Origin: Alphaproteobacteria bacterium
GTDB taxonomy: Bacteria; Pseudomonadota; Alphaproteobacteria; Micropepsales; Micropepsaceae
Direction: 5' to 3'
Length of the DNA stretch: 64,000 nucleotides
Assembly (NCBI GenBank): GCA_028865545.1
Contig: JAGWJY010000008.1
Location: forward strand, 1-64,000
The notes beneath the pieces were generated by a model. That model was not told the origin of the DNA, made no database searches, and worked only from the letters and a program-made list of their open reading frames with translations. This document shows positions 24,058 through 39,760 of the stretch, one piece after another. Positions within the stretch are counted from its first letter, which is position 1. Every line of letters starts with the position of its first letter. The translations under genes and the position numbers were made by a program.

Positions 24058-24181
24058 ATCGCTCGCGAGCATTTGACGCCATTTAGGGCGGTCGGGGCTG
24101 TACTATTCAGCAACAATCCCTCTACAGTCGCGCCCGGTGGGCCGCCTTTCCTCAATGGGGAAACGTTACGGATACGTAGTT

Positions 24182-26767
24182 ATGATTGTTGAAACCGGCC
24201 TTTTCGCGCTAATCCTCGCGCTCTTTATATCTGCCATCCAGGCCGTCGTTCCATTGATCGGCGCCTCGCGCAACGAACCGGCATGGATGAACGTCGACCG
24301 CCCGGCAGCTGCGGTGCTGTTTGCGCTTGTCACACTATCCTTTGGTGCCCTGATGTGGGCTCACGTGACCAGCGACTTTTCCGTTCTGAACGTGGTCCAG
24401 AACAGCCACACGGACAAGCCGCTGCTATACAAGATTACGGGCGTGTGGGGCAGCCACGAAGGTTCCATGATGCTCTGGACCTTCATCCTCACGCTGTATG
24501 GCATGGCCGTGGCGGTATTCGGCGGCAATCTGCCGCCCGGGTTGCGTGCGCGCGTTCTCTCTGTGCAGGCAATGATCGCCTTTGGTTTCATTCTGTTCAT
24601 CCTTCTGACATCCAATCCCTTCACGCGCGTCTATCCGCCGCCACTGAACGGTGAAGGCCTGAACCCGTTGTTGCAGGACCCCGGCCTCGCGTTTCATCCC
24701 CCGTTCCTCTATCTTGGCTATGTCGGCTTCTCGATGGCGTTCTCGTTCGCCATCGCCGCGTTGATCGAAGGACGTGTCGACGCAGCATGGGCACGCTGGG
24801 TGCGGCCATGGACGTTAGTGGCTTGGTGCGCTTTGACGCTCGGCGTCGCCATGGGATCATGGTGGTCGTATTATACGCTGGGCTGGGGCGGATATTGGGC
24901 TTGGGACCCCGTGGAAAACGCCTCGCTCATGCCCTGGCTTGCAGGAACTGCACTTCTGCACTCGGCCATTGTCGCAGAGAAGCGCGATACCTTGAAAGCC
25001 TGGACAATCTTCCTGGCGATCATCACCTTCTCCCTGTCGCTGCTCGGAACCTTCCTGGTTCGATCCGGCGTATTGACGTCCGTTCATAGCTTTGCCGTCG
25101 ATCCCCAGCGCGGTGTGTTCATCTTGCTTCTTCTGCTGTTGTTCACCGGCGCATCGCTTTTCCTGTTCGCATTGCGCGCGCCAGCTCTAAAAAGCGGCGG
25201 GCTTTTTGCGCCAATTTCCCGCGAGAGCGGCCTGCTGTTCAATAACCTTCTCCTGAGTATCGCCGCTGCCACAGTTCTGCTTGGAACGCTTTACCCGTTG
25301 TTTGTCGACGCTCTAGGCCTTGGCAAGATTTCGGTTGGTCCGCCATATTTTGACAGCGTTTTTGTTCCGTTGATGGCGCCGATGATCCTGGTCATGGCAA
25401 TCGGGCCTTTTCTGTCCTGGCGGCGCGGCAATCTCAAAGACGCCTTGGCACGGCTGAAGCTCGCATTTGTCGTCACAGTTGTGACAATTGCCGCAACCCT
25501 AATGATCGCTGGTACCTCTTCGCGCACGCTCTGGGCATCGCTGGGATTTGGACTGGCGGCGTGGCTATTCTTCGGCAGTCTTATCGAGTGGACCGGACGG
25601 ATCGGGTTGTTCCGGCGCTCGCTGACCGAAGCAGTACATCGCGCCCGCCATTTGCCGCGGTCCGCCTATGGCATGACCATCGCACATATGGGGCTCGCGA
25701 TTGTTCTGGCAGGCATCACCGGTTCTTTGGCCTGGAAGACCGAAATGCTCCAGGTCATGCGCCCCGGTGACAGCGTGATGGTATCTGGCTATCAGCTCAC
25801 ATTCACCGGTGTCGACAATGATGTTAAAGGTCCAAATTACACCGCCTCACGCGCCACTTTCGTCGCCAGCAAAGACGGCCAGTTCGTCGCCAAGATGCAG
25901 CCAGAGCGGCGCGTGTATGCGAACCCGCCACAAGACAAGTCGACTGTCGCCATTCATACCAACTTCGTTGACGACCTCTACGCGGTCTTCGGGGAGCCGG
26001 ACGGGAAAGGAGGCTTCGTCACACATTTCTTCCTAAACCCGCTAGTGCCGTGGATTTTCTTCGGTGCCGTAGTGATGGTTTTCGGCGGCATTGTTTCGTT
26101 AAGCGACCGACGCCACCGTGTCGGCGCACCAATTAGGAAAGCTCGCGCTTCTCCGCATGACTCTTCAGCCGAGATGGCGCATCTTAAAACAACCGCTGTG
26201 AAAAGGATGGAAAATAAAATTCTTCTGCGTGGTTGGGTCTACCTTGTGCCGCTGCTGGCGTTCATCGTCATGGCTGGCTTCTTCATTCACCGCCTGCAAT
26301 TGGTATCGGAAGGGGATGCGCCGAATTTTATTCCGTCGGCCATGATCAACAAGCCAGCGCCGGCGTTTAACCTGCCGCCTCTCTTGGTGGACAGACCAGG
26401 TCTCAAGACCGCCGACTTAAAAGGCAAAGTCACGCTAGTGGACTTCTTTGCATCATGGTGCGTGCCGTGCCGCCAGGAACACCCGGTCCTAAGACTCGTG
26501 ACCCAGGCGGGCATCCGCCTCGTCGGCATCAACTACAAGGACAAACCGGCAGACGCCAAAGCTTGGCTCGCCGAGCTGGGTGATCCCTACCAGGCAGTAG
26601 CCGTCGACGCGCACGGACAGACAGGAATCAATTTCGGGGTCTACGGCGTACCGGAATCCTATCTCGTCGACAAGAATGGCGTAATCCGCTTCAAGCAGAC
26701 TGGCCCATTGACGCCAGAAGTCCTGCGGGAAAAATTGATTCCAATGGTAGAGAAGCTAAAGCAGTGA
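24182..26767 (+). CDS. ccmF: CcmF-CcmG fusion, cytochrome c heme lyase with thioredoxin-like domain (copy 1)
   Basis: About 861 residues. Residues 1 to about 650 form CcmF, a polytopic heme-handling membrane protein of System I cytochrome c maturation. The WWD heme motif is GGYWAWDPVENASL. After a cytoplasmic linker, a membrane segment (GWVYLVPLLAFIVMAGFF) leads into a periplasmic thioredoxin fold with WCVPCRQEH, which is CcmG/DsbE. These are normally two adjacent genes; here they share one continuous frame, and copy 2 does too, arguing against a sequencing error. The topology fits, since CcmF ends in the cytoplasm where the CcmG anchor begins. ATG 24182 (MIVETGLFALIL) is chosen over an upstream GTG. 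Genes ccmABCDE are not in this window. Confidence 0.93.
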   Translation: MIVETGLFALILALFISAIQAVVPLIGASRNEPAWMNVDRPAAAVLFALVTLSFGALMWAHVTSDFSVLNVVQNSHTDKPLLYKITGVWGSHEGSMMLWTFILTLYGMAVAVFGGNLPPGLRARVLSVQAMIAFGFILFILLTSNPFTRVYPPPLNGEGLNPLLQDPGLAFHPPFLYLGYVGFSMAFSFAIAALIEGRVDAAWARWVRPWTLVAWCALTLGVAMGSWWSYYTLGWGGYWAWDPVENASLMPWLAGTALLHSAIVAEKRDTLKAWTIFLAIITFSLSLLGTFLVRSGVLTSVHSFAVDPQRGVFILLLLLLFTGASLFLFALRAPALKSGGLFAPISRESGLLFNNLLLSIAAATVLLGTLYPLFVDALGLGKISVGPPYFDSVFVPLMAPMILVMAIGPFLSWRRGNLKDALARLKLAFVVTVVTIAATLMIAGTSSRTLWASLGFGLAAWLFFGSLIEWTGRIGLFRRSLTEAVHRARHLPRSAYGMTIAHMGLAIVLAGITGSLAWKTEMLQVMRPGDSVMVSGYQLTFTGVDNDVKGPNYTASRATFVASKDGQFVAKMQPERRVYANPPQDKSTVAIHTNFVDDLYAVFGEPDGKGGFVTHFFLNPLVPWIFFGAVVMVFGGIVSLSDRRHRVGAPIRKARASPHDSSAEMAHLKTTAVKRMENKILLRGWVYLVPLLAFIVMAGFFIHRLQLVSEGDAPNFIPSAMINKPAPAFNLPPLLVDRPGLKTADLKGKVTLVDFFASWCVPCRQEHPVLRLVTQAGIRLVGINYKDKPADAKAWLAELGDPYQAVAVDAHGQTGINFGVYGVPESYLVDKNGVIRFKQTGPLTPEVLREKLIPMVEKLKQ

Positions 26768-27267
26768 AACCTCGTTTCGGAATCCTTTCGGCCGCTGCCG
26801 TGTTTCTGCTGTTTGCCACAGATATGCACTACGCGGCTTTCGCCGTCGAACCCAGCGAGGTGCTTGCCAATCCGGTGCTCGAGGCCCGCGCCCGGGCCAT
26901 TAGCAGCGAGTTGCGCTGCCTTGTCTGCCAGAATGAATCCATCGACGAATCGAACGCATCCTTGGCACATGATCTGCGCGTTTTGGTGCGCAAACGCCTT
27001 CTCGCGGGCGATAGTAATGAGCAGGTCAAGGAATACATCGTCGCCAGGTATGGCAATTACGTTCTGTTGAAGCCGCCCTTCATTGAAGAAACCTATGTAC
27101 TATGGTTCGGGCCGCTGATCCTGCTACTGGGCGCGACGGCGGCGATCATTCTGTTTTATCGACGCCGCACCGGCCAGTCGTCGGAACCCACCCCTCTCAC
27201 GGACGAAGAACGGCGCAGCCTGTCCCTCCTGCTCAGCAAATCTGATGAAAAAGAGGAAGCCCGCTGA
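26764..27267 (+). CDS. ccmH: CcmH, cytochrome c maturation thiol oxidoreductase (copy 1)
   Basis: A 167-residue periplasmic, membrane-anchored protein. A signal segment is followed by the apocytochrome-thiol-reducing motif LRCLVCQNESI. A C-terminal membrane helix (LWFGPLILLLGATAAIILF) precedes a short cytoplasmic tail. It reduces apocytochrome c cysteines and works with CcmF. The GTG start overlaps the ccmFG stop by four bases (GTGA). Confidence 0.95.
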   Translation: MKPRFGILSAAAVFLLFATDMHYAAFAVEPSEVLANPVLEARARAISSELRCLVCQNESIDESNASLAHDLRVLVRKRLLAGDSNEQVKEYIVARYGNYVLLKPPFIEETYVLWFGPLILLLGATAAIILFYRRRTGQSSEPTPLTDEERRSLSLLLSKSDEKEEAR

Positions 27268-28145
27268 TGTATTGGATTGCGTTTGCTTTCCTCACAGTCC
27301 TTTGTGTTTCGGCTCTGCTCTACCCGCTTTTGCGCCGAAACCAATCGACTGCGCCAGCGCGTGCCGAATACGACAATCTCGTCTATAGCAGTCAGTTGTC
27401 CGAGATCGCGCAAGAGGTCGATCGCGGTGTATTGAGCCAGGAGCAGGCCGATGCGGCGCGTACTGAAATCCATCGCCGCATGCTATCGGCAGCTGCCGGA
27501 AACAAAAGGACGACTCATTCGGAGGGTAATCGTCGTGCACGCATAGCCGCTGCTGCAGTGATCGCCCTCCTCGTACCAGTAGGATCAGGCCTGTTATACA
27601 GCGCCCTAGGTTCTCCCGGTATGCCGGATCAACCTTATGCCGAACGGCTTAGACATGATCCCAACGTCATAATCGCGTCCACTGCGCACAAGCTTGCAGT
27701 TCAGCTTGAAAATAAGCCATATGCAGGCGGCTATCAGCGCTTGGCGGAAATATATTTATATTTGAATGAATATGACCGTTCCGCGGCGGCCTATCAACGT
27801 GCCATAGACCTTGGCGACAACAACGCGGATATGTGGTCGCATTTGGGCGAGGCAATCGTTGCCGCAAACAGCGGAACAGTGGTGCCGGACGCGTTAAGCG
27901 CTTTCACACATGCACTTGGCATCGATGCGAAGGAGCCACGGGCGCGTTATTATCTTGGCTTGGCCGCAGCTCAGGCTCACGAGCTGAAAACGGCGATCGC
28001 CATATGGCGCGATCTGGAAATGGACAGCACCGCCGACGCGCCCTGGCTCCCGCTCCTGCGCCAACGCATCACCGCTTACGCCAAGGCTGGCGGCTTTGAC
28101 CCTGCAACAGTCCCTCCAGAGCCACCGCTTCTCAGCAAACCATGA
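27267..28145 (+). CDS. ccmI: CcmI, short form lacking the C-terminal domain (copy 1)
   Basis: A 292-residue inner-membrane protein with two N-terminal membrane helices (about residues 2-22 and 90-112) and a TPR-containing periplasmic part that binds apocytochromes. It aligns with the first ~290 residues of copy 2 (482 residues) and stops after FDPATVPPEPP, where copy 2 continues for another ~190 residues. Downstream bases show no leftover homology in the frames I checked, so the tail was deleted rather than cut by one stop codon. It may still function in heme-lyase assembly. The ATG shares one base with the ccmH stop (TGATG). Confidence 0.9.
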   Translation: MYWIAFAFLTVLCVSALLYPLLRRNQSTAPARAEYDNLVYSSQLSEIAQEVDRGVLSQEQADAARTEIHRRMLSAAAGNKRTTHSEGNRRARIAAAAVIALLVPVGSGLLYSALGSPGMPDQPYAERLRHDPNVIIASTAHKLAVQLENKPYAGGYQRLAEIYLYLNEYDRSAAAYQRAIDLGDNNADMWSHLGEAIVAANSGTVVPDALSAFTHALGIDAKEPRARYYLGLAAAQAHELKTAIAIWRDLEMDSTADAPWLPLLRQRITAYAKAGGFDPATVPPEPPLLSKP

Positions 28146-28275: not shown

Positions 28276-29724
28276 TCAATGCCCTTTGATTTTTCCCGAA
28301 AGGATGTCCAAACGGTTGTGGATGCTGATGGCCAGCGGATCTGTCGGATCCGCCACAGATAGAGCCCTGTTCCAGAACAGGCGTGCGCGCTCCATGTGGC
28401 CTGCCTTCTGCTCCGCCAGTCCGACATAATAGAGGGCCTGCAGATTGGTAGGGTCGAGTTTCAGAACACCGCGCATGGTCCTGACATAATCCGCCGGCGT
28501 GTCGTCGCCCGGTACGGCAGCAGACTTCTGGATTTCCGCAAGAGACAGCTGCACGCCAATATCGCCAGGCTTGAGCTTGACGGCGTGGTCGATCGCCGCG
28601 CGCGCTTTGTCGTGCTCGCCAAGTACGTTGTAGGCATGCGCCAGACGTTGCCAACCAGCCACATCACCGGGGTTCTTCGCCATGCGATCCGCAAGCTTCG
28701 ATACCATGGCGTGGATCATGGTGTCCTGATCATCCGTCGTCGACGTCGGCGCGGCGTCAGCACGCGCTTGGCTGTCCTTGACCGCAAGCGGGGTGGTGTT
28801 CAGGTGCATGGCATTGGTCATTGCAGTGACCGCCACATTCAGCGTCTTCGGTGACGGCGGGCTCGGGGGGACTGATGCCGGATCGAAACCACCTTCCTTT
28901 GAGAAAGACGAAATATTCTCGCGTACCATCGGCAACCATGGCGCATCCGGAGGAGCGTCTTTTTCGAGATCGCGCCAGATCGCGACCGCCTGCTTCAGAT
29001 TCCCGATCTGCGATTCAGCCAGACCGATGTAAAACCGCGCGCGGTTGTCGTGTGGATCGAGCGCCAGCGCATTGCTGAACGCCATCAAGGCCTCCGGCAC
29101 AATTGCGCCGCCATTTGCCATAGCGACGGATTCCCCGAACTCGGACCAAGTGGCTGAGTCATTGGCACCGAGAGCAACCGCCTGACGGTCAGCGTCGGCG
29201 GCCTGATCGTAGTCGCGGGAATTGAAATACATCTCCGCTAGGCGCTTGTAACCAGACGCGCTTGGACTGTCCTTCAACAGGTCGGCCAGCTTTTCCGCCG
29301 TCGCGGCGACGACAAATTCTGGGTCATGTTTAAGACGCCAAGCATAGGGCTTTCCTGGTAGATTCGGAGAACCTAGCGCGCCATACACTGCGACTGAACC
29401 GAGGGGCAAAATAAGAGCGATTGCCATAATTGCTGCGATGCGGGCGTGGCGGCTGTCCAATCGCACAGGTTTGACCGGCGCTTTGAGCTCAGCGTCTTCG
29501 GCTGCCAGCATGCGCCGGTGCACTTCTGCCCGCGCAGCAACAGCCTCGGTTTCGGTCAATAGACCGCGTTCGATCTCCTGCTCGATCTCTGCCAACTGAT
29601 TGCGGTAAACAACGATGTCATAATCAACGCGCGGTGGCGCCTCCTCCGACTGCCTTTTCAAGAGCGGCAGAAGGAGTATCATTAGGACGGCAAGCATCAA
29701 CACCGCGAAAATCAGCCACAACAT
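28276..29724 (-). CDS. ccmI: CcmI, full length (copy 2)
   Basis: A 482-residue cytochrome c maturation chaperone. The first helix is MLWLIFAVLMLAVLMILLLP, and a second is near residue 100 (ARIAAIMAIALILPLG). TPR units follow (ASGYKRLAEMYFNSRDYDQAA and, further on, AGWQRLAHAYNVLGEHDKAR). The C-terminal ~190 residues, absent in copy 1, contain a further TPR block that in this family holds the C-terminal helix of apocytochrome. The ATG follows the ccmH copy 2 stop with a one-base gap. It is the last gene of the minus-strand set. Confidence 0.93.
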   Translation of the reverse strand: MLWLIFAVLMLAVLMILLLPLLKRQSEEAPPRVDYDIVVYRNQLAEIEQEIERGLLTETEAVAARAEVHRRMLAAEDAELKAPVKPVRLDSRHARIAAIMAIALILPLGSVAVYGALGSPNLPGKPYAWRLKHDPEFVVAATAEKLADLLKDSPSASGYKRLAEMYFNSRDYDQAADADRQAVALGANDSATWSEFGESVAMANGGAIVPEALMAFSNALALDPHDNRARFYIGLAESQIGNLKQAVAIWRDLEKDAPPDAPWLPMVRENISSFSKEGGFDPASVPPSPPSPKTLNVAVTAMTNAMHLNTTPLAVKDSQARADAAPTSTTDDQDTMIHAMVSKLADRMAKNPGDVAGWQRLAHAYNVLGEHDKARAAIDHAVKLKPGDIGVQLSLAEIQKSAAVPGDDTPADYVRTMRGVLKLDPTNLQALYYVGLAEQKAGHMERARLFWNRALSVADPTDPLAISIHNRLDILSGKIKGH

Positions 29725-29725
29725 C

Positions 29726-30232
29726 TTACGTCCCTTTAGTTTCGCCGTCGGTGTTGCCGATCAAAGCGGCAAGACGCCGGGTTTCTTCGTCCGAAAGTTC
29801 TGCCGGCCCTACCGATTGCGTGGAGCGTCTATAATAAACCGCGGCAATGCCTGCCCCGCTCAGCAACAAGACCAGGGGGCCAAACCACAGAAGATACGTT
29901 TCCGCATCGAATGGCGGCTTCAGCAGGACATAGTTGCCATAGCGGGCCACGATGTACTGCTTGACCTGCTGGTCCGTGTCGCCTGCAACGATTCGCTTGC
30001 GCACGAGCAGTCGCAGGTCATGCGCCAAATCCGCATCGGAATCATCTATGGATTCGTTCTGGCAGACGAGACAGCGCAGTTGCTTATCGATGACACGGGC
30101 ACGAGCTTCGAGCTTGGGATTGGTCAGCATCTCGTCTGGCCGTATCGCCCAAGCTGCACCGGCCGTACCCCACAGGGTTGCCAACAAAGCCATGTTCGCC
30201 AGAATTGCCGAGATTCGTTTGCGGTATCTCAC
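29726..30232 (-). CDS. ccmH: CcmH, cytochrome c maturation thiol oxidoreductase (copy 2)
   Basis: A 168-residue paralogue of the protein at 26764-27267. It keeps the LRCLVCQNESI motif and the C-terminal membrane anchor. GTG at 30232 overlaps the ccmFG copy 2 stop by four bases, exactly as in copy 1. Substitutions are spread over the protein, so both copies appear to be under selection. It is a candidate for handling the multiheme cytochromes encoded upstream on this strand. Confidence 0.94.
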   Translation of the reverse strand: MRYRKRISAILANMALLATLWGTAGAAWAIRPDEMLTNPKLEARARVIDKQLRCLVCQNESIDDSDADLAHDLRLLVRKRIVAGDTDQQVKQYIVARYGNYVLLKPPFDAETYLLWFGPLVLLLSGAGIAAVYYRRSTQSVGPAELSDEETRRLAALIGNTDGETKGT

Positions 30233-32829
30233 TTGCCCAATTTCTCCGCCAAGGGAATCAACTGGTTCTTGATGATGTCCGGCGTCAACGGCCCCGTCTG
30301 CTTGAAGCGGATTACCCCGTTCTTGTCGATCAGATAGGACTCCGGCACACCATAGACCCCAAAATTGAGTCCGGTCTGGCCGTGTGCATCTACGGCAACC
30401 GTCTTATAGGGGTCGCCCTGCTCCGCCAGCCAAGCTTTGGCGTCTTCCGCTCGGTCTTTGTAATTGATGCCAACCAGCACAATACCGGCCTTGGCGACCT
30501 CCGACAGATAGGGATGCTCCTCGCGGCACGGCACACACCATGAAGCAAAGAAATTGACCAACGTGACCTTGCCGCGCAGATCAGCGGTCTTGAAGCCGGG
30601 TTGCCCCGCCAGCAGCGGCGGCAAGTTGAATTGCGGCGCCGACTTGTTGACCATGACCGACGGGATCAGGTTCGGCGTATCACCTTCGGCGATCAGATGT
30701 ATCCGCCAGATGAAGAAGCCGGCCAAAACGGCGAAGGCCAGAAGCGGCACGAGATAGGTCCAACCGCGCGAAGCCGCCCGCCGATCAGGTACTGCGGTGC
30801 GGGGTACTTCCGATTTCATTGCGGTCGCGGCGGCGAGTTTCATCGCGGGCGCAGAGATCTTCGCGCCAAGTCTGCGCAACGGCGCACCAACGCGGTGATG
30901 GCGATCCGTCAGGGAAACAAGGCCACCTAACACCAGCATGATTGCACCAAGGAATAGCCAAGGCACCAACGGATTGTGAAAAATGTGAACGACGTACCCG
31001 CCACTGCCGTTGGGATCACCGAGAACCAGGTAAAGATCGCTGACGAAGTTCGTGTGGATTGCGACAGTCGACAGAGGCTGTTGCGGGTTCTCATACATCC
31101 GCCGCTCCGGCGTCAGATCGGTCACATAGCGGCCGTCCCTGGTGACGACAAAGCTCGCGCGCGTCGCCACGTAATTCGGCCCCTTGAGATTGTCTTCCAC
31201 GTCGATGAACCTGACGGTGTAGCCGGCGATCGCGGCAGTGTCTCCGGGGCGCATAACGTTGAGATATTCAGTCTTCCAAGCTTGCGACCCGGTAATCCCA
31301 AGTAGCATGATCGCCAATCCCATATGGCTGATGGTCATGCCATAGGTGGACCGTGGCAGATGGCGAGCCCGGTGCAGCGCATCGCCGAGCGAGCGCTTGA
31401 ACAGGCCTATCCTGCCTGCCCATTCCGAGAGGCTACCAAAGAATAACCACGCCGCCAATCCAAACCCGAGCGACGCCCACAGAGATCGCGAGGATACACC
31501 CGCGCCGATCCATACTCCGATGACGGCAACGACGGTCACGACAAACGTGAACTTCATTCGTGACAAGGCCGTCTTCAGATCACCGCGTTTCCACGATAGG
31601 AAGGGGCCGACAGCCATGAGCACGATCAACGGCACCATGAGCGGCACCATCACGATGTTGAAGTATGGCGGGCCGACAGAAACTTTGCCCAAGTTTAGGG
31701 CATCCGCGAACAGCGGGTACAGTGTGCCGAGCAGAACCGTGCCGGCGGCGGTGCTCAGAACGACATTATTAAACAGAAGCCCGCCTTCACGCGAGACCGG
31801 CGTAAATAATCCGCCCCCCTTGAGCGACGGGGCACGAAAAGCGAATAGCGCCAGCGAACTGCCAGTGACTACGGCCAGAAGGGTTAGGATGAAGATGCCG
31901 CGGGCTGGATCGCTGGCGAAACTGTGCACCGAGGTGAGAACACCAGAACGCACCAAAAACGTCCCTAGCAACGACAGCGAAAAGGTAATGATCGCCAGGA
32001 AGATCGTCCACGACTTCATGGTGTCGCGCTTTTCCGCAACGATGGACGAATGCAGCAATGCCGTGCCGGCGAGCCACGGCATCAACGAAGCATTCTCGAC
32101 AGGATCCCAGGCCCAATAACCGCCCCAACCGAGCGTGTAGTACGACCACCACATTCCCATGGCGACGCCAAGCGTCAGCGCGCACCAAGCAACCAGCGTC
32201 CAAGGCCGCACCCAGCGCGCCCAGGCCGCGTCGACCCGGCCTTCGATCAACGCCGCGATGGCAAAGGAGAACGCCATCGAGAAGCCGACATAACCGAGAT
32301 AGAGAAACGGCGGATGAAATGCGAGGCCTGGGTCCTGCAGCAGCGGGTTGAGACCGTTACCGTTCAGCGGTGCCGGATCTACACGTACGAAAGGATTGGA
32401 CGTAAGCAGGATGTACAGCAGGAAGCCGACAGCAATCATCCCCTGAACCGCCAGCGCGCGCGCGCGCAGCCCCGGCGGCAGGTCGCGCCCGAACACAGAC
32501 ACGGCTAAACCATAAAGTACCAAGATCAAGGTCCACAGCATCATGGACCCTTCATGGCTCCCCCACACCCCGGTGATCTTGTAGAGCAGCGGCTTGTCGG
32601 TGTGACTGTTCAGAACGACGTTCAGGACGGAGAAATCGCTCGTGATGTGAGCCCACATCAGCGCGCCGAAGGCGACAGCGACCAGGCAGAAGCTCGCGAA
32701 TGCCGACGGCCGGTCCAGACTCATCCATGTCGAGTCACCGCGCGCCGCTCCCAGGAGCGGGACAGTCGCCTGAACGACCGACACAAAGAGTGCAAGAATC
32801 AGGGCAAAAAGACCGACTTCGGCAATCAT
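30229..32829 (-). CDS. ccmF: CcmF-CcmG fusion (copy 2)
   Basis: 866 residues with the same architecture as copy 1: a polytopic CcmF part with WWD motif GGYWAWDPVENASL, a ~45-residue cytoplasmic linker that is longer than in copy 1, a membrane anchor (GWTYLVPLLAFAVLAGFFI) and a thioredoxin domain with WCVPCREEH. It starts at ATG 32829 (MIAEVGLFALIL). It lies 267 bp downstream of the mtrB-type gene on the same strand, behind a hairpin at 33019-33060. The CcmF/G set may be transcribed partly from the electron-conduit operon and could specialise in its cytochromes (inference). Confidence 0.93.
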   Translation of the reverse strand: MIAEVGLFALILALFVSVVQATVPLLGAARGDSTWMSLDRPSAFASFCLVAVAFGALMWAHITSDFSVLNVVLNSHTDKPLLYKITGVWGSHEGSMMLWTLILVLYGLAVSVFGRDLPPGLRARALAVQGMIAVGFLLYILLTSNPFVRVDPAPLNGNGLNPLLQDPGLAFHPPFLYLGYVGFSMAFSFAIAALIEGRVDAAWARWVRPWTLVAWCALTLGVAMGMWWSYYTLGWGGYWAWDPVENASLMPWLAGTALLHSSIVAEKRDTMKSWTIFLAIITFSLSLLGTFLVRSGVLTSVHSFASDPARGIFILTLLAVVTGSSLALFAFRAPSLKGGGLFTPVSREGGLLFNNVVLSTAAGTVLLGTLYPLFADALNLGKVSVGPPYFNIVMVPLMVPLIVLMAVGPFLSWKRGDLKTALSRMKFTFVVTVVAVIGVWIGAGVSSRSLWASLGFGLAAWLFFGSLSEWAGRIGLFKRSLGDALHRARHLPRSTYGMTISHMGLAIMLLGITGSQAWKTEYLNVMRPGDTAAIAGYTVRFIDVEDNLKGPNYVATRASFVVTRDGRYVTDLTPERRMYENPQQPLSTVAIHTNFVSDLYLVLGDPNGSGGYVVHIFHNPLVPWLFLGAIMLVLGGLVSLTDRHHRVGAPLRRLGAKISAPAMKLAAATAMKSEVPRTAVPDRRAASRGWTYLVPLLAFAVLAGFFIWRIHLIAEGDTPNLIPSVMVNKSAPQFNLPPLLAGQPGFKTADLRGKVTLVNFFASWCVPCREEHPYLSEVAKAGIVLVGINYKDRAEDAKAWLAEQGDPYKTVAVDAHGQTGLNFGVYGVPESYLIDKNGVIRFKQTGPLTPDIIKNQLIPLAEKLGK

Positions 32830-33018
32830 CCGTTCATATCCACGATAGTCCCATCAGGCATGGGAGATCCTACGGCGCTGATCTTTTGCCTAAGCCAGTC
32901 GGCCACGAAATGCGTAATAGTGCGTACGCTGCATCGCCCGACGCCCGGAGCGTATCACCTTGTTCAGACAAGAATTTTTGTCAGCTGCCGAACTGATAAA
33001 AGTGCAGGCAAAACGACC

Positions 33019-33060
33019 GACACCGACGATCGCGCTTTGTGTTGCGCAATCGCCGGTGCC
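33019..33060 (-). terminator. Terminator-like hairpin between the electron-conduit operon and ccm copy 2
   Basis: On the minus strand two 17-base arms pair with only three G-T wobbles around an 8-base loop, 37 bases after the MtrB stop. The following T-tract is short (CGTTTTGCC), so it may attenuate rather than fully stop transcription into ccmFG. The rest of 32830-33018 contains no gene and may hold a ccm promoter. Confidence 0.6.
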
Positions 33061-33096
33061 GAATTACCCCCAGAGCAAACGCCCCCGGGTGGAAGG

Positions 33097-35463
33097 TCAC
33101 AACTTCAAGGTCATGGCGGCCATGAAGGTGCTGACATCGTACTTGGCCGGCACATCGCCCGTCAGCACCTGGCCCACGGAAGCTCCAACCAATGCCCAGT
33201 CGTTCATGTCCAAGCTGGTGAACTGGTAGCTGAAATAGAAGGAGGTGTTAGCCGAGTAGTCGTAGGTGGCGTGCACCTTAACCTGATGATTTCCTGACGC
33301 CGTGGTGAGCAGCGGGTCGCCGCCATAGGTCTGCCCCGCTTCGCCGCTGGTCCATGAGCCGCTCTGAGCGAAGGCCTGGTCACCATAGGAGTAGATGTAA
33401 TCCGCACCGAACTTCAGCTTGTCGTTCGCCCGCCACGTGCCACCGATGCCGGCGGTGTTGATGTCGTAGGTGGACGCCTCGCTGTAATAGGTGCCGGGCG
33501 CCGTTGTACTGGTACCGTCGTTCAGCGCCCGCATGGCACGATAGGTTCGTAAGAAAGTGTAGTAAGCGTGCACTTCCTCATCCGGGCTAACTTGATACGA
33601 CATGTCCGGTCCGGCCTGCACGCTGTAGTCGTGATTGATCCCAAGGCTAGGGTTCACCACGCCACTATAGGTAGCCTGTGGGCTGTGATACTGATCATTG
33701 CTGTATTTGCCGAAGAAGCTAACAGACGTCTTCTGGCCGATCATACCGGACACCATGCCGGTGACAGCATCCTCGGTACGCGCGGCCTCATAGAAGGGAA
33801 TCTGCTGGCACCCGAGGCTGTCGAGCGTGCTACCGCAGTCGGATGCGATCTGAACGAGCCATAGACTGTAGTCCGGGGTCGACGCTGTGCGATCGGAATG
33901 GACATAACCCAGCGAGCCGGTGATGCCGTTCGGCAGGGTTGAGTTGACCTTCACCGACTCCGCGTTTTCCTGCGTGTCGTGCGTGATCGCATTGCCGCGA
34001 TGCTCATTACGATAGGTGTAACCGACGGTTACCCTTGTGGACTCAAGGACGTGATAGCCTGCGGTGAGTTCTACTTCCTGCTTAGTCCAGGATTCCGGCA
34101 CAGCTTCACGATATTTGAACGATGTCGTGTCGGTCGGATCTCCGTATATCCACATTGCCTTCGTCTGCGGATCGCGCACATCGATCTTGTAGCTCGCTCG
34201 CACGTCCAATTTTGGGAGTGGTCTTGAACTCACAGCGACATTGCTGAAGAAGGTCTGCACCATGCCGTCCAGCGACCCAGGGTTCGAGGCAAGTTGCACA
34301 GCCAGCGCAGGGTTGCTGACGGCGTAGCCCATTTGCGTCGCCGCCGGGAATGGATCGTTCTGCAACTGGACACCGTATACCATGGTCCCGTACAGCCTGG
34401 TTGTCGGGCTTAGATTGTATCCGATTTCGCCAGTGACCGTGTGAGCCTGATTGCTCGGTGGCAATGCGTAGACGCCGGACTGCTGATAGCTTGTATAGTT
34501 ATGCGTAACGGGGTCCTGAATCGCCGTGAAGTTCCAGCCCTCAAAGGCGTAGCCGCCTTTGTTATGGTCAATGAAATTGGAGTATTCGTAGGAGATCGAA
34601 GCTTGTAAGTCCGGCGTGGAATAGGCTGCCGACACGACATAGTTATCGGTGTCGTAGTCGATCGGCATCGGAAAGGTGACCATTCCGGTATTGCTGCCGC
34701 CAGTCGTCATTGACTGTTCGAGCGAACCTTCCTTATGTTCGCGGCTGGCCGAGGCGCTGAGCTTCCAGAAACCGAGATCATAGCTGCCGCTCACGGTGCC
34801 TTTGTCCCGACGAGTGCCGATCTGATAGGTCAGTTCAGTGGCCGGGCCATAGTCACCGACATGTGTGCCGGAGGATGACGTGATCCCACTCCGCGTCCTG
34901 TAGCTGCCATAAAAGCTCGTCGAGGTTGGCGAGTTGTTGAGATAGGCGCCGTTGGCAGCGAGTGCCGCCGAATAGCCTGGCGCGAGGTTGCCTTCCTTGT
35001 CGAGGATTGTCGTGAAGTTGTCCGTCGCTGCGTACGTCATGGCATCATAAGACGCGGAGACGCTCCACTTGCCCTGTTCGCCGGTCTTTATATCGATCGA
35101 CGCTTCGGGCGCAAATTTGCCGAAGCCGATATTCACGTTGTCGCCGGTGAATGTGAAGTAGTGCGTCCCACCGCTATCCCACGCGTCACGGGTCCCAAGA
35201 TTCCAGCTGCCAAGCACCCCGATGCCCGAGTTTGGCATGCCGTTGTACCGGCCAAAGGCGGCGGAGGGGTCCGACACCCCTCCTACTCCGATAGTGACTT
35301 CACCGATAGACGACGACGGGTTCTGTACTACGGTAGCTTGAGGCGTCGCCGGCGCGTCGGAGACATCGAAAGCATTACTGTCCTGGGCTTGTGCGGTCAC
35401 CGTCAGCGGCAGCAGGCAGGCACTTGCGAGGGCCGCAGCTCTCAGCGTTTGGATCGTGTTCAT
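33097..35463 (-). CDS. mtrB: MtrB/PioB-family outer-membrane beta-barrel (decaheme-associated)
   Basis: A 788-residue outer-membrane protein with a signal peptide (cleavage near TVTAQAQ). The long series of amphipathic beta-strands has Tyr/Ser/Thr-rich turns, such as GTVSGSYDLGFWKLSASASREH and FGADYIYSYGDQAF, and it ends in VSTFMAAMTLKL. MtrB/PioB/DmsF barrels insert a decaheme MtrA-type cytochrome through the outer membrane so electrons can cross. The gene sits 12 bp after the decaheme cytochrome gene, which supports the assignment. The N-terminal CXXC motif of Shewanella MtrB is not seen. No surface cytochrome of MtrC/OmcA type is encoded next to it. Confidence 0.88.
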   Translation of the reverse strand: MNTIQTLRAAALASACLLPLTVTAQAQDSNAFDVSDAPATPQATVVQNPSSSIGEVTIGVGGVSDPSAAFGRYNGMPNSGIGVLGSWNLGTRDAWDSGGTHYFTFTGDNVNIGFGKFAPEASIDIKTGEQGKWSVSASYDAMTYAATDNFTTILDKEGNLAPGYSAALAANGAYLNNSPTSTSFYGSYRTRSGITSSSGTHVGDYGPATELTYQIGTRRDKGTVSGSYDLGFWKLSASASREHKEGSLEQSMTTGGSNTGMVTFPMPIDYDTDNYVVSAAYSTPDLQASISYEYSNFIDHNKGGYAFEGWNFTAIQDPVTHNYTSYQQSGVYALPPSNQAHTVTGEIGYNLSPTTRLYGTMVYGVQLQNDPFPAATQMGYAVSNPALAVQLASNPGSLDGMVQTFFSNVAVSSRPLPKLDVRASYKIDVRDPQTKAMWIYGDPTDTTSFKYREAVPESWTKQEVELTAGYHVLESTRVTVGYTYRNEHRGNAITHDTQENAESVKVNSTLPNGITGSLGYVHSDRTASTPDYSLWLVQIASDCGSTLDSLGCQQIPFYEAARTEDAVTGMVSGMIGQKTSVSFFGKYSNDQYHSPQATYSGVVNPSLGINHDYSVQAGPDMSYQVSPDEEVHAYYTFLRTYRAMRALNDGTSTTAPGTYYSEASTYDINTAGIGGTWRANDKLKFGADYIYSYGDQAFAQSGSWTSGEAGQTYGGDPLLTTASGNHQVKVHATYDYSANTSFYFSYQFTSLDMNDWALVGASVGQVLTGDVPAKYDVSTFMAAMTLKL

Positions 35464-35475
35464 GCGACACCTATT

Positions 35476-36486
35476 TTAGCGGAAGAAGGTTGAGCCGCTG
35501 GGGCTATCCGAACCGTGGATCTGCGAGTGGCAGTTCAAGCAGCTGCGATCGCCGTAGAGATAGAGGCTCCCGCTGTGTGCTGCGACTGACTGCTTCGACA
35601 CGCCGACACCACCCATGTCATTCGTCGCCGCATGGCAATCGAGGCAAAGGAACGGCACCTTTTCCTTCAGCAGGCGCGGATTCACCGAGCCGTGCGGATT
35701 GTGGCAGTTGGTGCAGTCCTCACGAACCGGCTGGTGTTCCCATAGCATTGGGCCGCGCTTGTCCGCATGGCAGCTATAGCAAAGGTCCGTCACGCGAGCT
35801 TTCTTCAGAAGATCGCGGTTCGGTGACCCGTGCGGATTGTGGCAATCCGAGCACGCCACTTTACCCTCGCGGATCGGATGATGAGAGAACTGCAACGTAA
35901 GCGCCCGCTGTTCCGCATGGCAGGAGAAGCATTTCTCGGGCTGTGTTGCCTTGACCAGGATTGGATCCTTTTTGACGTGGATCGTGTGGCAGCTCGTGCA
36001 CGCCAGATTGTTATCCTGATGTTGGCTCCCGGCCCAATCCATTCGTAAGCCGTTCTGATGGCAACTGAGGCAGACCTCGTTGCGCGAAGATACTGGAGAT
36101 GCATTAGGACCATTGAAGACGACGGCAGGTTCTGTCTTTTTCTGACCTGGGGCGGGAGCGCTCTCGACATGCGCCTCGCTGGGACCATGGCAGGATTCGC
36201 ATTCGTGCTGACCAAACGGTGACCGAGGGTCGCCTTTAGTGCCGTGTGGCGTTTGGAGAACATCCGTTATGGGCGATTGATCGTGACACTTCATGCAAGT
36301 TGCGGCACCACGTGCGCTGTACAACGCACCGTTGGAGTCAGTGCTGGCAGGCGCCGCCGCAGCGGTCGCCTGTGGCGCCGCTGCCTGCGTCGCATCTGCT
36401 GCCGACGCTGGCTGTGCCGTGCCAAATATCAGGGCACAAAGCAAAACCAAGACGCCAAGGCCACTTAGGTGATTTATTTTTGTCAT
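35476..36486 (-). CDS. mtrA: MtrA/DmsE-family periplasmic decaheme cytochrome c
   Basis: 336 residues, close to Shewanella MtrA (333) and far from the longer PioA. A signal peptide is present (cleavage near QPASAA). Exactly ten CXXCH heme sites start at about residues 64, 96, 139, 163, 186, 212, 236, 258, 281 and 316. Regularly spaced distal His occur, and CHNPHGS appears twice, which is typical of the family. It carries electrons along a heme wire inside the barrel encoded next. ATG 36486 with AGGGG upstream is chosen; an in-frame start 26 codons earlier would overlap the preceding gene and put the signal peptide inside the protein. Confidence 0.95.
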   Translation of the reverse strand: MTKINHLSGLGVLVLLCALIFGTAQPASAADATQAAAPQATAAAAPASTDSNGALYSARGAATCMKCHDQSPITDVLQTPHGTKGDPRSPFGQHECESCHGPSEAHVESAPAPGQKKTEPAVVFNGPNASPVSSRNEVCLSCHQNGLRMDWAGSQHQDNNLACTSCHTIHVKKDPILVKATQPEKCFSCHAEQRALTLQFSHHPIREGKVACSDCHNPHGSPNRDLLKKARVTDLCYSCHADKRGPMLWEHQPVREDCTNCHNPHGSVNPRLLKEKVPFLCLDCHAATNDMGGVGVSKQSVAAHSGSLYLYGDRSCLNCHSQIHGSDSPSGSTFFR

Positions 36487-36523
36487 CTGCTTATCCCCTG
36501 CTCTATCGGGGCCCCCTGGGCGA

Positions 36524-37462
36524 TTATTTCTTTTCCACGACGAAATCGGCGTTGCCCTGATCAAGAATCAGAGAGCGTTCGAAGGACACGTAGTGGAACC
36601 GTTTGGCGGTATGGCCCGCGTGTATCGCGAAGGCGACCGTGTACCGCTTGCCCGCCACGAGAGGCACAAAGCCAACGCCCGCGTCGAGCTTGCGCGACAG
36701 AGTCACCGACCATACGCCATCCTTGTAAGTGGCTTCAGCGGTGACGGCCGTCGGCTTTGTAGCCGCGAGCTTGTCGAAGATGACGCCGTTTTCCGCAGTT
36801 GCGGGAGAGCCCGGATTTAGGCGGGCCTGCCAGTATTCAAGCGAGTAGCCGTCAGCCTTAAGCTTCGCCAATGCATCTGCCGGCACCAACGCATCACCAC
36901 CGCCTTGACGCGTCAGATGGGCGCGAGTTTTTGGAAGATACATTGTGCGGTCGGAATTCCCGGCGCTTGGCATTCCAGCGGAATCATCATGGCATGCGCC
37001 CCAGCAACCGGCCCGGTTGGCCTCGGGAACCCCACCGCCATCCAACATCATGGTGACCTTGGTGTCGTAGGCGCTATCCATCTTCGAATTGGGCTGGCTC
37101 CCTTCGGAGAATTCGAGGTGGACATACATGTTTTGTGCATCGTGCTCGAACTGCACCTTTGCGTCGATCGAACCAGGTTTGCCAGGGATCGGGGCCGCTT
37201 CGTTCTTCTTGCCCGAGACCAGCAGCGCACCCATGTTCTTTTCGTCGCCGATATGACAGGCCGCGCAGTCCTTGCCGGCGCGGAATTTCTCCGCGCCGGG
37301 ATGGTCCGTCAGCACCCATTCCCAAGACGACTGTCCAGGATAAAAGAGCTGAACGTCCTTTGCCGGAACGCCCGACCAATTCGGTGCGGCCATCGCGGCC
37401 GAAAAGCTCATGGCACCTGCGATACCCAGCGCCGCGGTCATCGTTTTTGTAGAGAGTTTCAT
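36524..37462 (-). CDS. Periplasmic heme protein with ethylbenzene-dehydrogenase/cytochrome c-552-type domain
   Basis: 312 residues with a signal peptide (cleavage near SAAMA-APN). A c-type heme site CAACH is at residue 66. A second, CX3CH-type site, C153-W-G-A-C157-H158, is followed by DD. The remainder resembles the beta-sandwich heme-binding domain of ethylbenzene dehydrogenase gamma and related DMSO-reductase-family subunits, as in YVHLEFSEG and KRYTVAFAIHAGHTAKRFHYVSFERSL. It probably relays electrons in the periplasm between the NapC-type protein (10 bp upstream) and the decaheme cytochrome. Its exact heme count, two c-type with or without b-type, is not settled. GAGGACAAG precedes the ATG. 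Confidence 0.8.
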   Translation of the reverse strand: MKLSTKTMTAALGIAGAMSFSAAMAAPNWSGVPAKDVQLFYPGQSSWEWVLTDHPGAEKFRAGKDCAACHIGDEKNMGALLVSGKKNEAAPIPGKPGSIDAKVQFEHDAQNMYVHLEFSEGSQPNSKMDSAYDTKVTMMLDGGGVPEANRAGCWGACHDDSAGMPSAGNSDRTMYLPKTRAHLTRQGGGDALVPADALAKLKADGYSLEYWQARLNPGSPATAENGVIFDKLAATKPTAVTAEATYKDGVWSVTLSRKLDAGVGFVPLVAGKRYTVAFAIHAGHTAKRFHYVSFERSLILDQGNADFVVEKK

Positions 37463-37472
37463 CGTCTTGTCC

Positions 37473-38111
37473 TCACTGAATATCGAAGCTGCTGCTGGAA
37501 GCCGGCTTTGCCGATGGATCCGCAGGTACGTGATGAGTGATGCCCTTGTGGCAATCGAGGCAATTTTCGTCGGTCTTCATCGCATCCGTGTGTTGGGCGC
37601 GAATACTCGGACGTTGGTCCTCAAGAACCATGTTTGCGTATTTGTGGCAGGCCTTACATTCTGCTGCGTTGTCCGCCTTGAAGCCGGCCCACACTCGCTT
37701 TGCCAATTCGAACCGACGCGCTTGAAATGCTTTCTTGACGCCATCGGGACCCTCACCCGCGAAGACCACGAAGTGTGTCCACAATTCCAAGCTCGCCATG
37801 GCCTTGCGACCTAGGACCGCCGGCCAGTTGTCGTGCGGAACGTGGCATTGGGCACAGACGACGACGACACCTTGCTCGTTCTTGTAATGCTTGCTGTGCA
37901 TGTACTCTTGGTAGACCGTGCTCTCCATCTCGTGACAAGTATGCGCGCAGAAGTTCAGCGAGCTCGTGTAGTCAAGAACGGTCGCGTAGCTGGCAGCCAA
38001 GCCAATCCCAACGAGCACCGACACGCCGGCAACGATGATGAACTTCGATCTGTTGCGTACGAACCCGCCGATACGCTGCGAGGCTGCACGTAATTTTTCA
38101 ACGACTGGCAC
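37473..38111 (-). CDS. NapC/NirT-family tetraheme quinol dehydrogenase (CymA-like)
   Basis: 212 residues. One N-terminal membrane anchor (about residues 23-46) is followed by a periplasmic tetraheme domain. Canonical CXXCH sites are at residues 86, 152 and 184. The first site is unusual: C55-A-H-T-C59-H60-E-M, a CX3CH motif followed by the Met that ligates the first heme in this family. Such proteins oxidise menaquinol or ubiquinol and pass electrons to periplasmic cytochromes, as CymA does for Mtr. It leads the four-gene operon. The GTG start is supported by AAAGGGG upstream. Confidence 0.92.
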   Translation of the reverse strand: MPVVEKLRAASQRIGGFVRNRSKFIIVAGVSVLVGIGLAASYATVLDYTSSLNFCAHTCHEMESTVYQEYMHSKHYKNEQGVVVVCAQCHVPHDNWPAVLGRKAMASLELWTHFVVFAGEGPDGVKKAFQARRFELAKRVWAGFKADNAAECKACHKYANMVLEDQRPSIRAQHTDAMKTDENCLDCHKGITHHVPADPSAKPASSSSFDIQ

Positions 38112-38219
38112 CTGCGTCCCCTTTCTTATTTGCGCGAAATGAATCTCTTCGCGATTAGGACGCGTGATATGTGGCAGCGCTCAATGGCAAGACGTAGTGC
38201 CAAGAGGGGCAAACTTGAT

Positions 38220-38235
38220 GATACCAGGGGGTATC
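38220..38235. promoter_or_regulatory. Candidate operator upstream of the electron-conduit operon
   Basis: GATACC-AGGG-GGTATC, with 6-bp perfect arms and a 4-bp spacer, lies 109 bases before the NapC-type start codon in the only long gap of this strand (38112-38296). The ATAC/G-tract/GTAT pattern loosely recalls CsoR/RcnR-family operators, but no such regulator is in the window. No FNR box (TTGAT-N4-ATCAA) was found here. Confidence 0.4.
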
Positions 38236-38296: not shown

Positions 38297-39760
38297 TCAG
38301 GCGTTTAGAGTGTCAGCGAGCCGGGCGACACCCTGACGTAGCTGATCTGTCGTCAATGCCGCATAGCCAAGGATCAGCGCTCGATCATGGAAGCGGCAGG
38401 TTTCCAAAGCGGCTAGATTCTCACACGTCACGCTTTCGACACTTGTGCCTTGTGCTCTAGCTGCATCGGATAGTGCGCGCGCCGACGGATAGCGATCAGG
38501 AAGCAACCATGTCAGCTGTGTCCCGATTTCCGTACCTATCAACTCTATTTCGCCGAAGTGTTCCCGCAGTGCCTGAATAAGGCAGTCGCGACGATCCAAA
38601 TAAATTTTGCGTACCCGGCGCAAGTGATGATCGTACTCTCCGCTCGTCAGGAGATCGGCTACGACCATCTGCTCCAACCATGGGCAGCAATCTTCCGCCA
38701 TGGACTTTATTGCCGTGACGGCGTCAACAAATTCAGACGGTACCACGAGGTAGCCGATGCCAAGTCCGGCGCCAAGCGTCTTGGCAAAGGAGCCCGTATA
38801 GAAAACCAGCCCATATGGGTCGAGAGCAGCAAGCGGCTGGGGCGTCGTCCCGTGATAGCGATATTCGCTGTCGCTGTCGTCCTCTACAAGATAGGCACCC
38901 ACATCACGAGCCCATTTAAGCAACGCGTTGCGCCGCGGCTGAGGCATCGTTCCGCCGAGCGGATTTTGCCGTGCGGGCGTGACATAGGCGATGGAGAAAG
39001 CCCCACGCGGTAATTTGTCGATATCCAAGCCATGCTCATCGACAGGAGCGTGAACTATGTCTGCGCCTCTGGCTTCAAAGAAGCTGGCCATATCGCGATC
39101 GCCAGGAGATTCCATAACGACACGATCGCCCCGACGCTGGAACAAATGCGCCACCAGGCTGCACGCCTGTCTCCGGCCGACCACGATTATGACCTGCTCG
39201 GGCGACGCCATAATACCGCGCGTAGCTGCGAGGTAATCCACGATGACCTGCCTCAGAGACGCAACGCCGGCAGCGGGTTGGGATTTTGCGAGCCCGTCCG
39301 GTTCGCGCTCAAAGACGTTCCGCATGCCCTGAAGCCAAACCTTTGGAGGTAGCAAGTGACTGGCGTCAAATCGCAGAGGGCTGAAATCTATGATGCCGTC
39401 AGGAATGTCCGGATGTGGCACCACGGAACCGTGGAACAAGGCGGGATGTAGGGATGCCTGCCGGGGGACATCTGAAATCGAATTGTTCGTGAAAGCAGGC
39501 TTTGGCTGCTGAGGCGGCGTCGAACAGACAAAGGTGCCGATCGCCGGCCGCGTGTCGAGATACCCTTCACTGATGAGTCGCTCATATGCGAGGAGAACAG
39601 TCGTTCGCGACACGCCAACCTGCTCCGCCAGGAACCTTGTGGCGATGATGCGGGAGTTCGGCTTGAGCTTTCCGGTCAGAATCAGCTGCCGCAATTGCTC
39701 AAAGAGCTGATCCTGCAATGGGATCGACGCTCTGCGATCGAGCTGCAGCGGCAAATTCAT
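38297..39760 (-). CDS. MocR-type (GntR-HTH plus aminotransferase fold) transcriptional regulator
   Basis: 487 residues. A GntR winged helix spans residues 1-78 (RFLAEQVGVSRTTVLLAYERL, GYLDTRPAIGTFV), joined to a fold-type I aminotransferase-like domain. The PLP Lys is about K327 in GSFAKTLGAG, and the cofactor Asp region is LVEDDSDSEY. MocR proteins such as PdxR and GabR use PLP or PLP adducts as effectors; the targets here are unknown. It lies upstream of, and on the same strand as, the cytochrome operon with 185 bp between, so a regulatory link is possible but unproven. A 14-bp palindrome 53 bases upstream may be its own operator. Confidence 0.9.
   Translation of the reverse strand: MNLPLQLDRRASIPLQDQLFEQLRQLILTGKLKPNSRIIATRFLAEQVGVSRTTVLLAYERLISEGYLDTRPAIGTFVCSTPPQQPKPAFTNNSISDVPRQASLHPALFHGSVVPHPDIPDGIIDFSPLRFDASHLLPPKVWLQGMRNVFEREPDGLAKSQPAAGVASLRQVIVDYLAATRGIMASPEQVIIVVGRRQACSLVAHLFQRRGDRVVMESPGDRDMASFFEARGADIVHAPVDEHGLDIDKLPRGAFSIAYVTPARQNPLGGTMPQPRRNALLKWARDVGAYLVEDDSDSEYRYHGTTPQPLAALDPYGLVFYTGSFAKTLGAGLGIGYLVVPSEFVDAVTAIKSMAEDCCPWLEQMVVADLLTSGEYDHHLRRVRKIYLDRRDCLIQALREHFGEIELIGTEIGTQLTWLLPDRYPSARALSDAARAQGTSVESVTCENLAALETCRFHDRALILGYAALTTDQLRQGVARLADTLNA

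Follow-up and report, generated by a model that had tools for sequence, protein, structure and literature searches.

The first 64,000 nucleotides of contig JAGWJY010000008.1, from the assembly of a soil-type alphaproteobacterium of the family Micropepsaceae (GCA_028865545.1), constitute the window analysed here and carry on the minus strand, from position 38111 down to 33097, four complete and co-directional genes which together would build an electron conduit across the cell envelope. In order, they encode a NapC/NirT-type inner-membrane tetraheme cytochrome (37473..38111, 212 amino acids, GTG start; Pfam PF03264, 3e-47), a diheme c-type cytochrome with the ethylbenzene-dehydrogenase-type (EB_dh) fold (36524..37462, 312 amino acids; PF09459, 4e-31), a decaheme cytochrome of the MtrA/DmsE family (35476..36486, 336 amino acids; TIGR03508, 312 bits for a cut-off of 192) and an MtrB/PioB outer-membrane beta barrel (33097..35463, 788 amino acids; PF11854, 275 bits; TIGR03509, 250.5 bits for a cut-off of 240). 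The gaps between them are 10, 37 and 12 bp, and the length of MtrA is counted from an ATG, the mechanically called open reading frame beginning at a TTG at 36564. An original prediction, made from the letters of the window, had described these four tightly spaced genes as a quinol-oxidising tetraheme anchor, a periplasmic heme relay, a ten-heme MtrA/DmsE-type protein and an MtrB/PioB barrel in an apparently alphaproteobacterial host devoid of MtrC or OmcA. The coordinates and the domain matches bore this out, the nearest named relatives support the host assignment, and the OmcA/MtrC model TIGR03507 has no match anywhere in the genome, in which NapC exists as a single copy; such genome-wide statements come from family searches. 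The synteny search that the prediction called for found the order NapC-EB_dh-MtrA-MtrB in several close relatives, with protein identities of 53-93%, and the arrangement is therefore not due to chance.

MtrA and MtrB form a porin-cytochrome core of the MtrAB type: both score above curated cut-offs, match the solved Mtr complex 6r2q and fall inside the porin-cytochrome families, a position outside them having been named as an outcome that would refute the prediction. MtrA contains 10 CXXCH motifs and aligns with the chain 6r2q_A with 269 bits across residues 38-333 (the PDB sequence table names this chain “Cystathionine beta-synthase”, apparently a label error). For MtrB and for NapC, phmmer gave no matches among PDB sequences; MtrB was matched by a fold search instead, its AlphaFold model (mean pLDDT 78.5) having 6r2q_B as best PDB match (E 4.6e-37, TM 0.71/0.85). 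A quick tree of 84 MtrA-type proteins, built by maximum likelihood, places that of the window within a starred set of 10 EB_dh-linked proteins, enclosed by a starred set of 37 which comprises EB_dh-linked proteins and their near kin, and the Shewanella-type MtrC-linked and the DmsA-linked proteins form a separate starred set of 15. Of the phylogeny proposed at the outset, this tree covers the comparison with Shewanella MtrA and DmsE, from which the window MtrA stands apart. An MtrA extended by an N-terminal monoheme cytochrome c stretch, with 11 CXXCH motifs, was observed in another genome of the host genus (G056; L151 8667-9875, minus strand), at a locus where NapC and EB_dh were not found.

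The inner half of the system is read from its heme motifs and its relatives. NapC presents three CXXCH motifs and one CX3CH, the latter being that of heme 1 (CAHTCH, followed by the usual EM to give CAHTCHEM); outside the host lineage such a motif is rare (CANTCHEM or CTTSCHEM in a small number of proteins), most relatives having FCISCHEM or similar. The EB_dh protein has a CXXCH at residue 66 and a CX3CH (CWGACH) at residue 153, and counting CXXCH alone would make it monoheme. Because an alignment of 44 homologs, taken from loci with Mtr, NirS or a dehydrogenase, shows no variation in either motif (nor in H289 and S292, numbered after its first sequence), it is best read as a diheme c-type cytochrome, which brings the four proteins to 16 candidate c-hemes. 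At its N-terminus it has what looks like an ordinary Sec signal, with AMA|AP at the end and no lipobox cysteine. Its predicted fold has as best match the gamma subunit of ethylbenzene dehydrogenase (2ivf_C, E 1.7e-9), although the latter holds a heme b inside a molybdenum enzyme, whereas the window protein has two covalent c-heme motifs and no adjoining molybdenum partner. Of the ethylbenzene-dehydrogenase-type heme relay first suggested, the fold and the relay role are retained, but not a place as enzyme subunit: the NCBIfam model ebdC gives 29.6 bits for a cut-off of 400, and a type II DMSO reductase gamma subunit was likewise rejected (26.1 for a cut-off of 169.85).

A class-wide search together with a scan of named genomes returned 86 EB_dh proteins besides that of the window, 42 of them adjacent to MtrA, 28 to NirS, 4 to a molybdopterin-binding dehydrogenase (MoCoBD domains) and 12 to none of these. 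Many genomes of alpha- and gammaproteobacteria share the EB_dh-MtrA-MtrB order, which had already been described in Telmatospirillum (PMC6933298), so the gene set, first taken for an unfamiliar one, is in part known. After NirS, EB_dh often adjoins NapC (in Bordetella and others) or shares one polypeptide with it, and matches on plasmids of Azospirillum and Ruegeria place EB_dh inside a gene annotated NapC/NirT. In nirS-nirT-nirB clusters, NirT is a tetraheme cytochrome and NirB a diheme c-552, a fused NirTB being reported as well, and NirT is taken to supply NirB, and NirB to supply NirS (PMC13086519, PMC8954225). The window shares with nirSTB of nitrite respiration a NapC/NirT tetraheme and an EB_dh diheme, adjacent or fused, but associates them with MtrAB instead of NirS. 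In the EB_dh tree its protein belongs to a starred clade of 35, of which 28 are MtrAB-linked and 3 are dehydrogenase-linked copies from the host genus, and the NirS-linked copies group separately. No nirS lies near the cluster, and the sole Cytochrom_D1 match of the genome is a marginal one of 82 residues, at the cut-off. NapC and EB_dh thus appear to behave as a single module, its two genes being neighbours in the window and in related genomes and fused after NirS elsewhere; synteny and domain make-up suggest that the EB_dh protein is a relay of the NirB/c-552 type. The inner half of a recurring and so far unexplained MtrAB arrangement would accordingly be the NirTB module of nitrite respiration.

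The host genus shows how such modules may be exchanged. Among its 69 genomes, 10 carry MtrA at an identity of at least 60%, and EB_dh adjoins MtrA in half of these strong carriers (5/10); in 3 other genomes EB_dh, with or without NapC, adjoins a molybdopterin dehydrogenase instead. At four loci (L037, L038, L039 and L041) NapC and/or EB_dh stand next to a molybdopterin-binding dehydrogenase that begins with a twin-arginine-like sequence, possibly a quinone-linked periplasmic enzyme sharing the NapC/EB_dh relay. Other MtrAB loci of the genus (L152, L154, L155 and a second copy in L050) present a 9-heme protein and a cytochrome b561-type partner, as separate genes or one polypeptide, in place of NapC-EB_dh, and for this reason the inner module looks like an interchangeable input; the pattern in the genus fits a fixed outer MtrAB conduit fed by varying inner parts. 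What appears new here is this swapping of the NapC-EB_dh module among MtrAB, NirS and molybdopterin dehydrogenase. In the Pseudomonadales, three loci (L107, L110 and L115) have EB_dh, itself joined to a 9-heme stretch, together with MtrC-like decahemes, and since both coexist EB_dh would be no replacement for MtrC. Across this order and related genomes, six loci (L107, L109, L110, L115, L123 and L124) have EB_dh joined to a 9-heme stretch that resembles MtrA, and NapC, MtrA and MtrC-like decahemes are encoded close by. Another genome, which shares the family of the Shewanella-like mtrCAB carriers (f226), has an EB_dh-MtrA-MtrB set (L203 5872-9857, minus strand) and an mtrCAB-type set elsewhere (L202), on long branches of uncertain placement.

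The closest published counterpart is the metagenome-assembled genome Telmatospirillum sp. SA7853_bin3, from a goethite-reducing culture, in which a “cytochrome c-552 (2 hemes)” precedes MtrA (10 hemes) and MtrB, and for which the c-552 was proposed as an extracellular substitute for MtrC (PMC6933298). Its contig was recovered in our scan (L060): another alphaproteobacterium without MtrC, it has the same EB_dh-MtrA-MtrB order, with proteins 59%, 58% and 32% identical to those of the window, but within the stretch examined NapC, MocR and ccm genes are not beside its cluster, its NapC/NirT being reported elsewhere, in a nitrate operon (PMC6933298). Shewanella MtrCAB with CymA shares the MtrA and MtrB homologous to 6r2q and an anchor of the NapC family; it differs by its MtrC, by an MtrA of another clade and by its carriers STC/FccA, where the window has a diheme EB_dh protein. 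The Mto system of Sideroxydans lithotrophicus combines an MtrAB-type core with the NapC/NirT-family ImoA and a periplasmic cytochrome, but PmcA and MtoD are monoheme (PMC13390432), whereas the carrier of the window combines two heme motifs with an EB_dh fold, and the direction reported for Mto is inward. No DmsA or DmsB of the Dms type is found among the neighbour genes of the cluster. In a Methylobacter bioanode cluster, a “monoheme” periplasmic protein has been described beside MtrAB (PMC13322032). A survey of MtrCAB distribution found a single alphaproteobacterium; it required mtrC, and the MtrC-less group therefore fell outside it (PMC8805035). Our comparison adds a group of alphaproteobacteria to the known carriers of MtrAB without MtrC.

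We propose, with a probability of roughly two thirds, that the four genes form a trans-envelope conduit in which electrons pass from quinol to NapC, to the EB_dh protein, to MtrA within MtrB and to an extracellular acceptor. NapC, which is NirT-like, would oxidise quinol at the inner membrane; the NirB-like EB_dh diheme would ferry the electrons through the periplasm; and MtrA inside the MtrB barrel would conduct them across the outer membrane, with no surface decaheme, to an acceptor, for example humics or an Fe(III) oxide. An electron-donor module which serves NirS elsewhere would thereby be attached to MtrAB. This scheme is assembled from sequence, namely the identity of the parts, the heme-motif counts, the conserved gene order, the folds predicted for the EB_dh protein and for MtrB, the swapping of the module and a conserved upstream element; from these we infer the periplasmic site, the order of electron flow, its outward direction and the kind of acceptor. 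Several points weigh against it. For the host organism the argument is made from genes; in Telmatospirillum, too, it is genomics, applied to an enrichment culture, that ties the genes to iron reduction, and the authors of that work put the diheme protein outside the cell (PMC6933298). MtrAB homologs also run inward, in Pio and Mto, and sequence cannot give the direction; an MtrAB without a surface cytochrome may perform poorly with solid minerals; and the proposed location of the EB_dh protein is drawn from fusions, a signal sequence and gene order.

Direction is the question on which an inward conduit has to be weighed, in which Fe(II) or some other donor outside the cell would supply MtrAB with electrons and quinone would be reduced by EB_dh-NapC, as in Pio and Mto. 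MtrAB cores are reversible and common to these systems (PMC8805035), and the inner-membrane partner of Mto is likewise a NapC/NirT-family protein (PMC13390432). Outward transfer is nevertheless likely, because the NirTB module is taken as an outward carrier in its NirS context and because the related Telmatospirillum genome comes from an iron-reducing culture. A search of the genome for a canonical RuBisCO found one family member only (L223 616-1740, minus strand), probably a RuBisCO-like protein of a sugar pathway. Its catalytic motif is KDDH instead of the KDDE of canonical RuBisCO, a weak argument against an autotrophic life on Fe(II) oxidation; on balance we regard an inward conduit as unlikely.

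The place of the diheme decides on the proposal made for Telmatospirillum, according to which it would be an extracellular terminal reductase replacing MtrC, the c-552-mtrA-mtrB order resembling mtrCAB and a predictor giving an extracellular location (PMC6933298). Homologs of the protein act in NirS loci and are found fused with NapC, an anchor of the inner membrane, EB_dh exists alongside MtrC-like genes, and its Sec-type start AMA|AP has no lipobox cysteine; for these reasons a periplasmic relay is favoured over a surface reductase, which we consider improbable. The NirTB identification thus argues against the published role and offers a periplasmic relay that can be tested. We give still less credit to a conduit whose target, in place of minerals or shuttles, would be one specific reductase, extracellular or soluble (DMSO-like or of another kind), with its gene elsewhere: DmsE is in the same decaheme family, and MtrA scores above the DmsE-family cut-off, but no reductase gene adjoins the cluster and the DmsA-linked MtrA proteins are in another clade.

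The surroundings of the proposed NapC-EB_dh-MtrAB conduit add regulatory and maturation genes. A 33-bp direct-repeat element (TGGTATCATCAAGTTTGCCCCTCTTGGCACTAC, 38194..38226, minus strand) lies 82 bp upstream of napC; its pattern, roughly CTGGTATNAT-N12/13-CTGGNNCTAC, was revealed by aligning the upstream regions of homologous clusters. Allowing at most 3 mismatches, the whole genome has this one site. Within the host genus, 6 of 10 strong MtrA carriers have the element, as against 0 of the 59 remaining genomes (one-sided Fisher 1.8e-6, which ignores shared ancestry), a reversed-pattern control giving zero sites. It stands upstream of napC, of EB_dh (in Telmatospirillum), of mtrA (in second copies) or of a UbiE-family gene (in 2 sister genomes). 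The next gene of the window encodes a MocR-type regulator with GntR and aminotransferase domains (38297..39760, minus strand; PF00392 and PF00155; PdxR model NF052282, 367.7 for a cut-off of 320), a frequent neighbour of MtrAB clusters in the host genus, which may bind the element as its operator. The two genes behind the element in sister genomes (L234 5310-6083, plus strand, and L235 2653-3498, minus strand) encode a UbiE/COQ5-family methyltransferase under NCBI cut-offs, and a link to quinones is possible, the rhodoquinone type being a speculation. There is also a wider proposal, to which we give somewhat less than an even chance: NapC-EB_dh-MtrAB would be a distinct and widespread export system with no need of a surface cytochrome, which would have recruited the NirTB module and be activated by a PLP-type MocR regulator through a CTGGTAT...CTGGNNCTAC operator, the same operator before a UbiE-family gene in some relatives hinting at a dedicated quinone.

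Downstream of mtrB, a consensus scan detected a terminator-like hairpin (33017..33062, minus strand; 19 pairs, 12 of them G-C, with a T-rich tail), one of 11 such sites where shuffles would give 7.0. It is followed, on the same strand, by genes for cytochrome c maturation: a CcmF-DsbE fusion (30229..32829; domain and family-model matches), a CcmH/NrfF-type protein (29726..30232; PF03918) and a CcmI with a TPR domain (28276..29724; TIGR03142). Each of the 10 strong MtrA carriers of the host genus has a ccmF gene next to an MtrAB pair. The MocR regulator, ccmF/H/I and the upstream repeat, as conserved neighbours, also appear to be new; they provide handles to find such systems and to switch them on. 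The arabinofuranosidase, aldose epimerase and TonB receptor genes near the cluster confirm the sugar-related neighbourhood that had been noted, but no conserved feature among them ties it to the conduit. A second ccm set strictly dedicated to the cluster was considered and is not supported: several carriers have one CcmF copy only, and some MtrA-less genomes likewise have two. In the window itself, two sets of ccmF-dsbE fusion, ccmH and ccmI are arranged tail to tail (24137-28145, plus strand, and 32829-28276, minus strand); their CcmF copies are 76% identical, and the minus-strand set alone adjoins the conduit genes.

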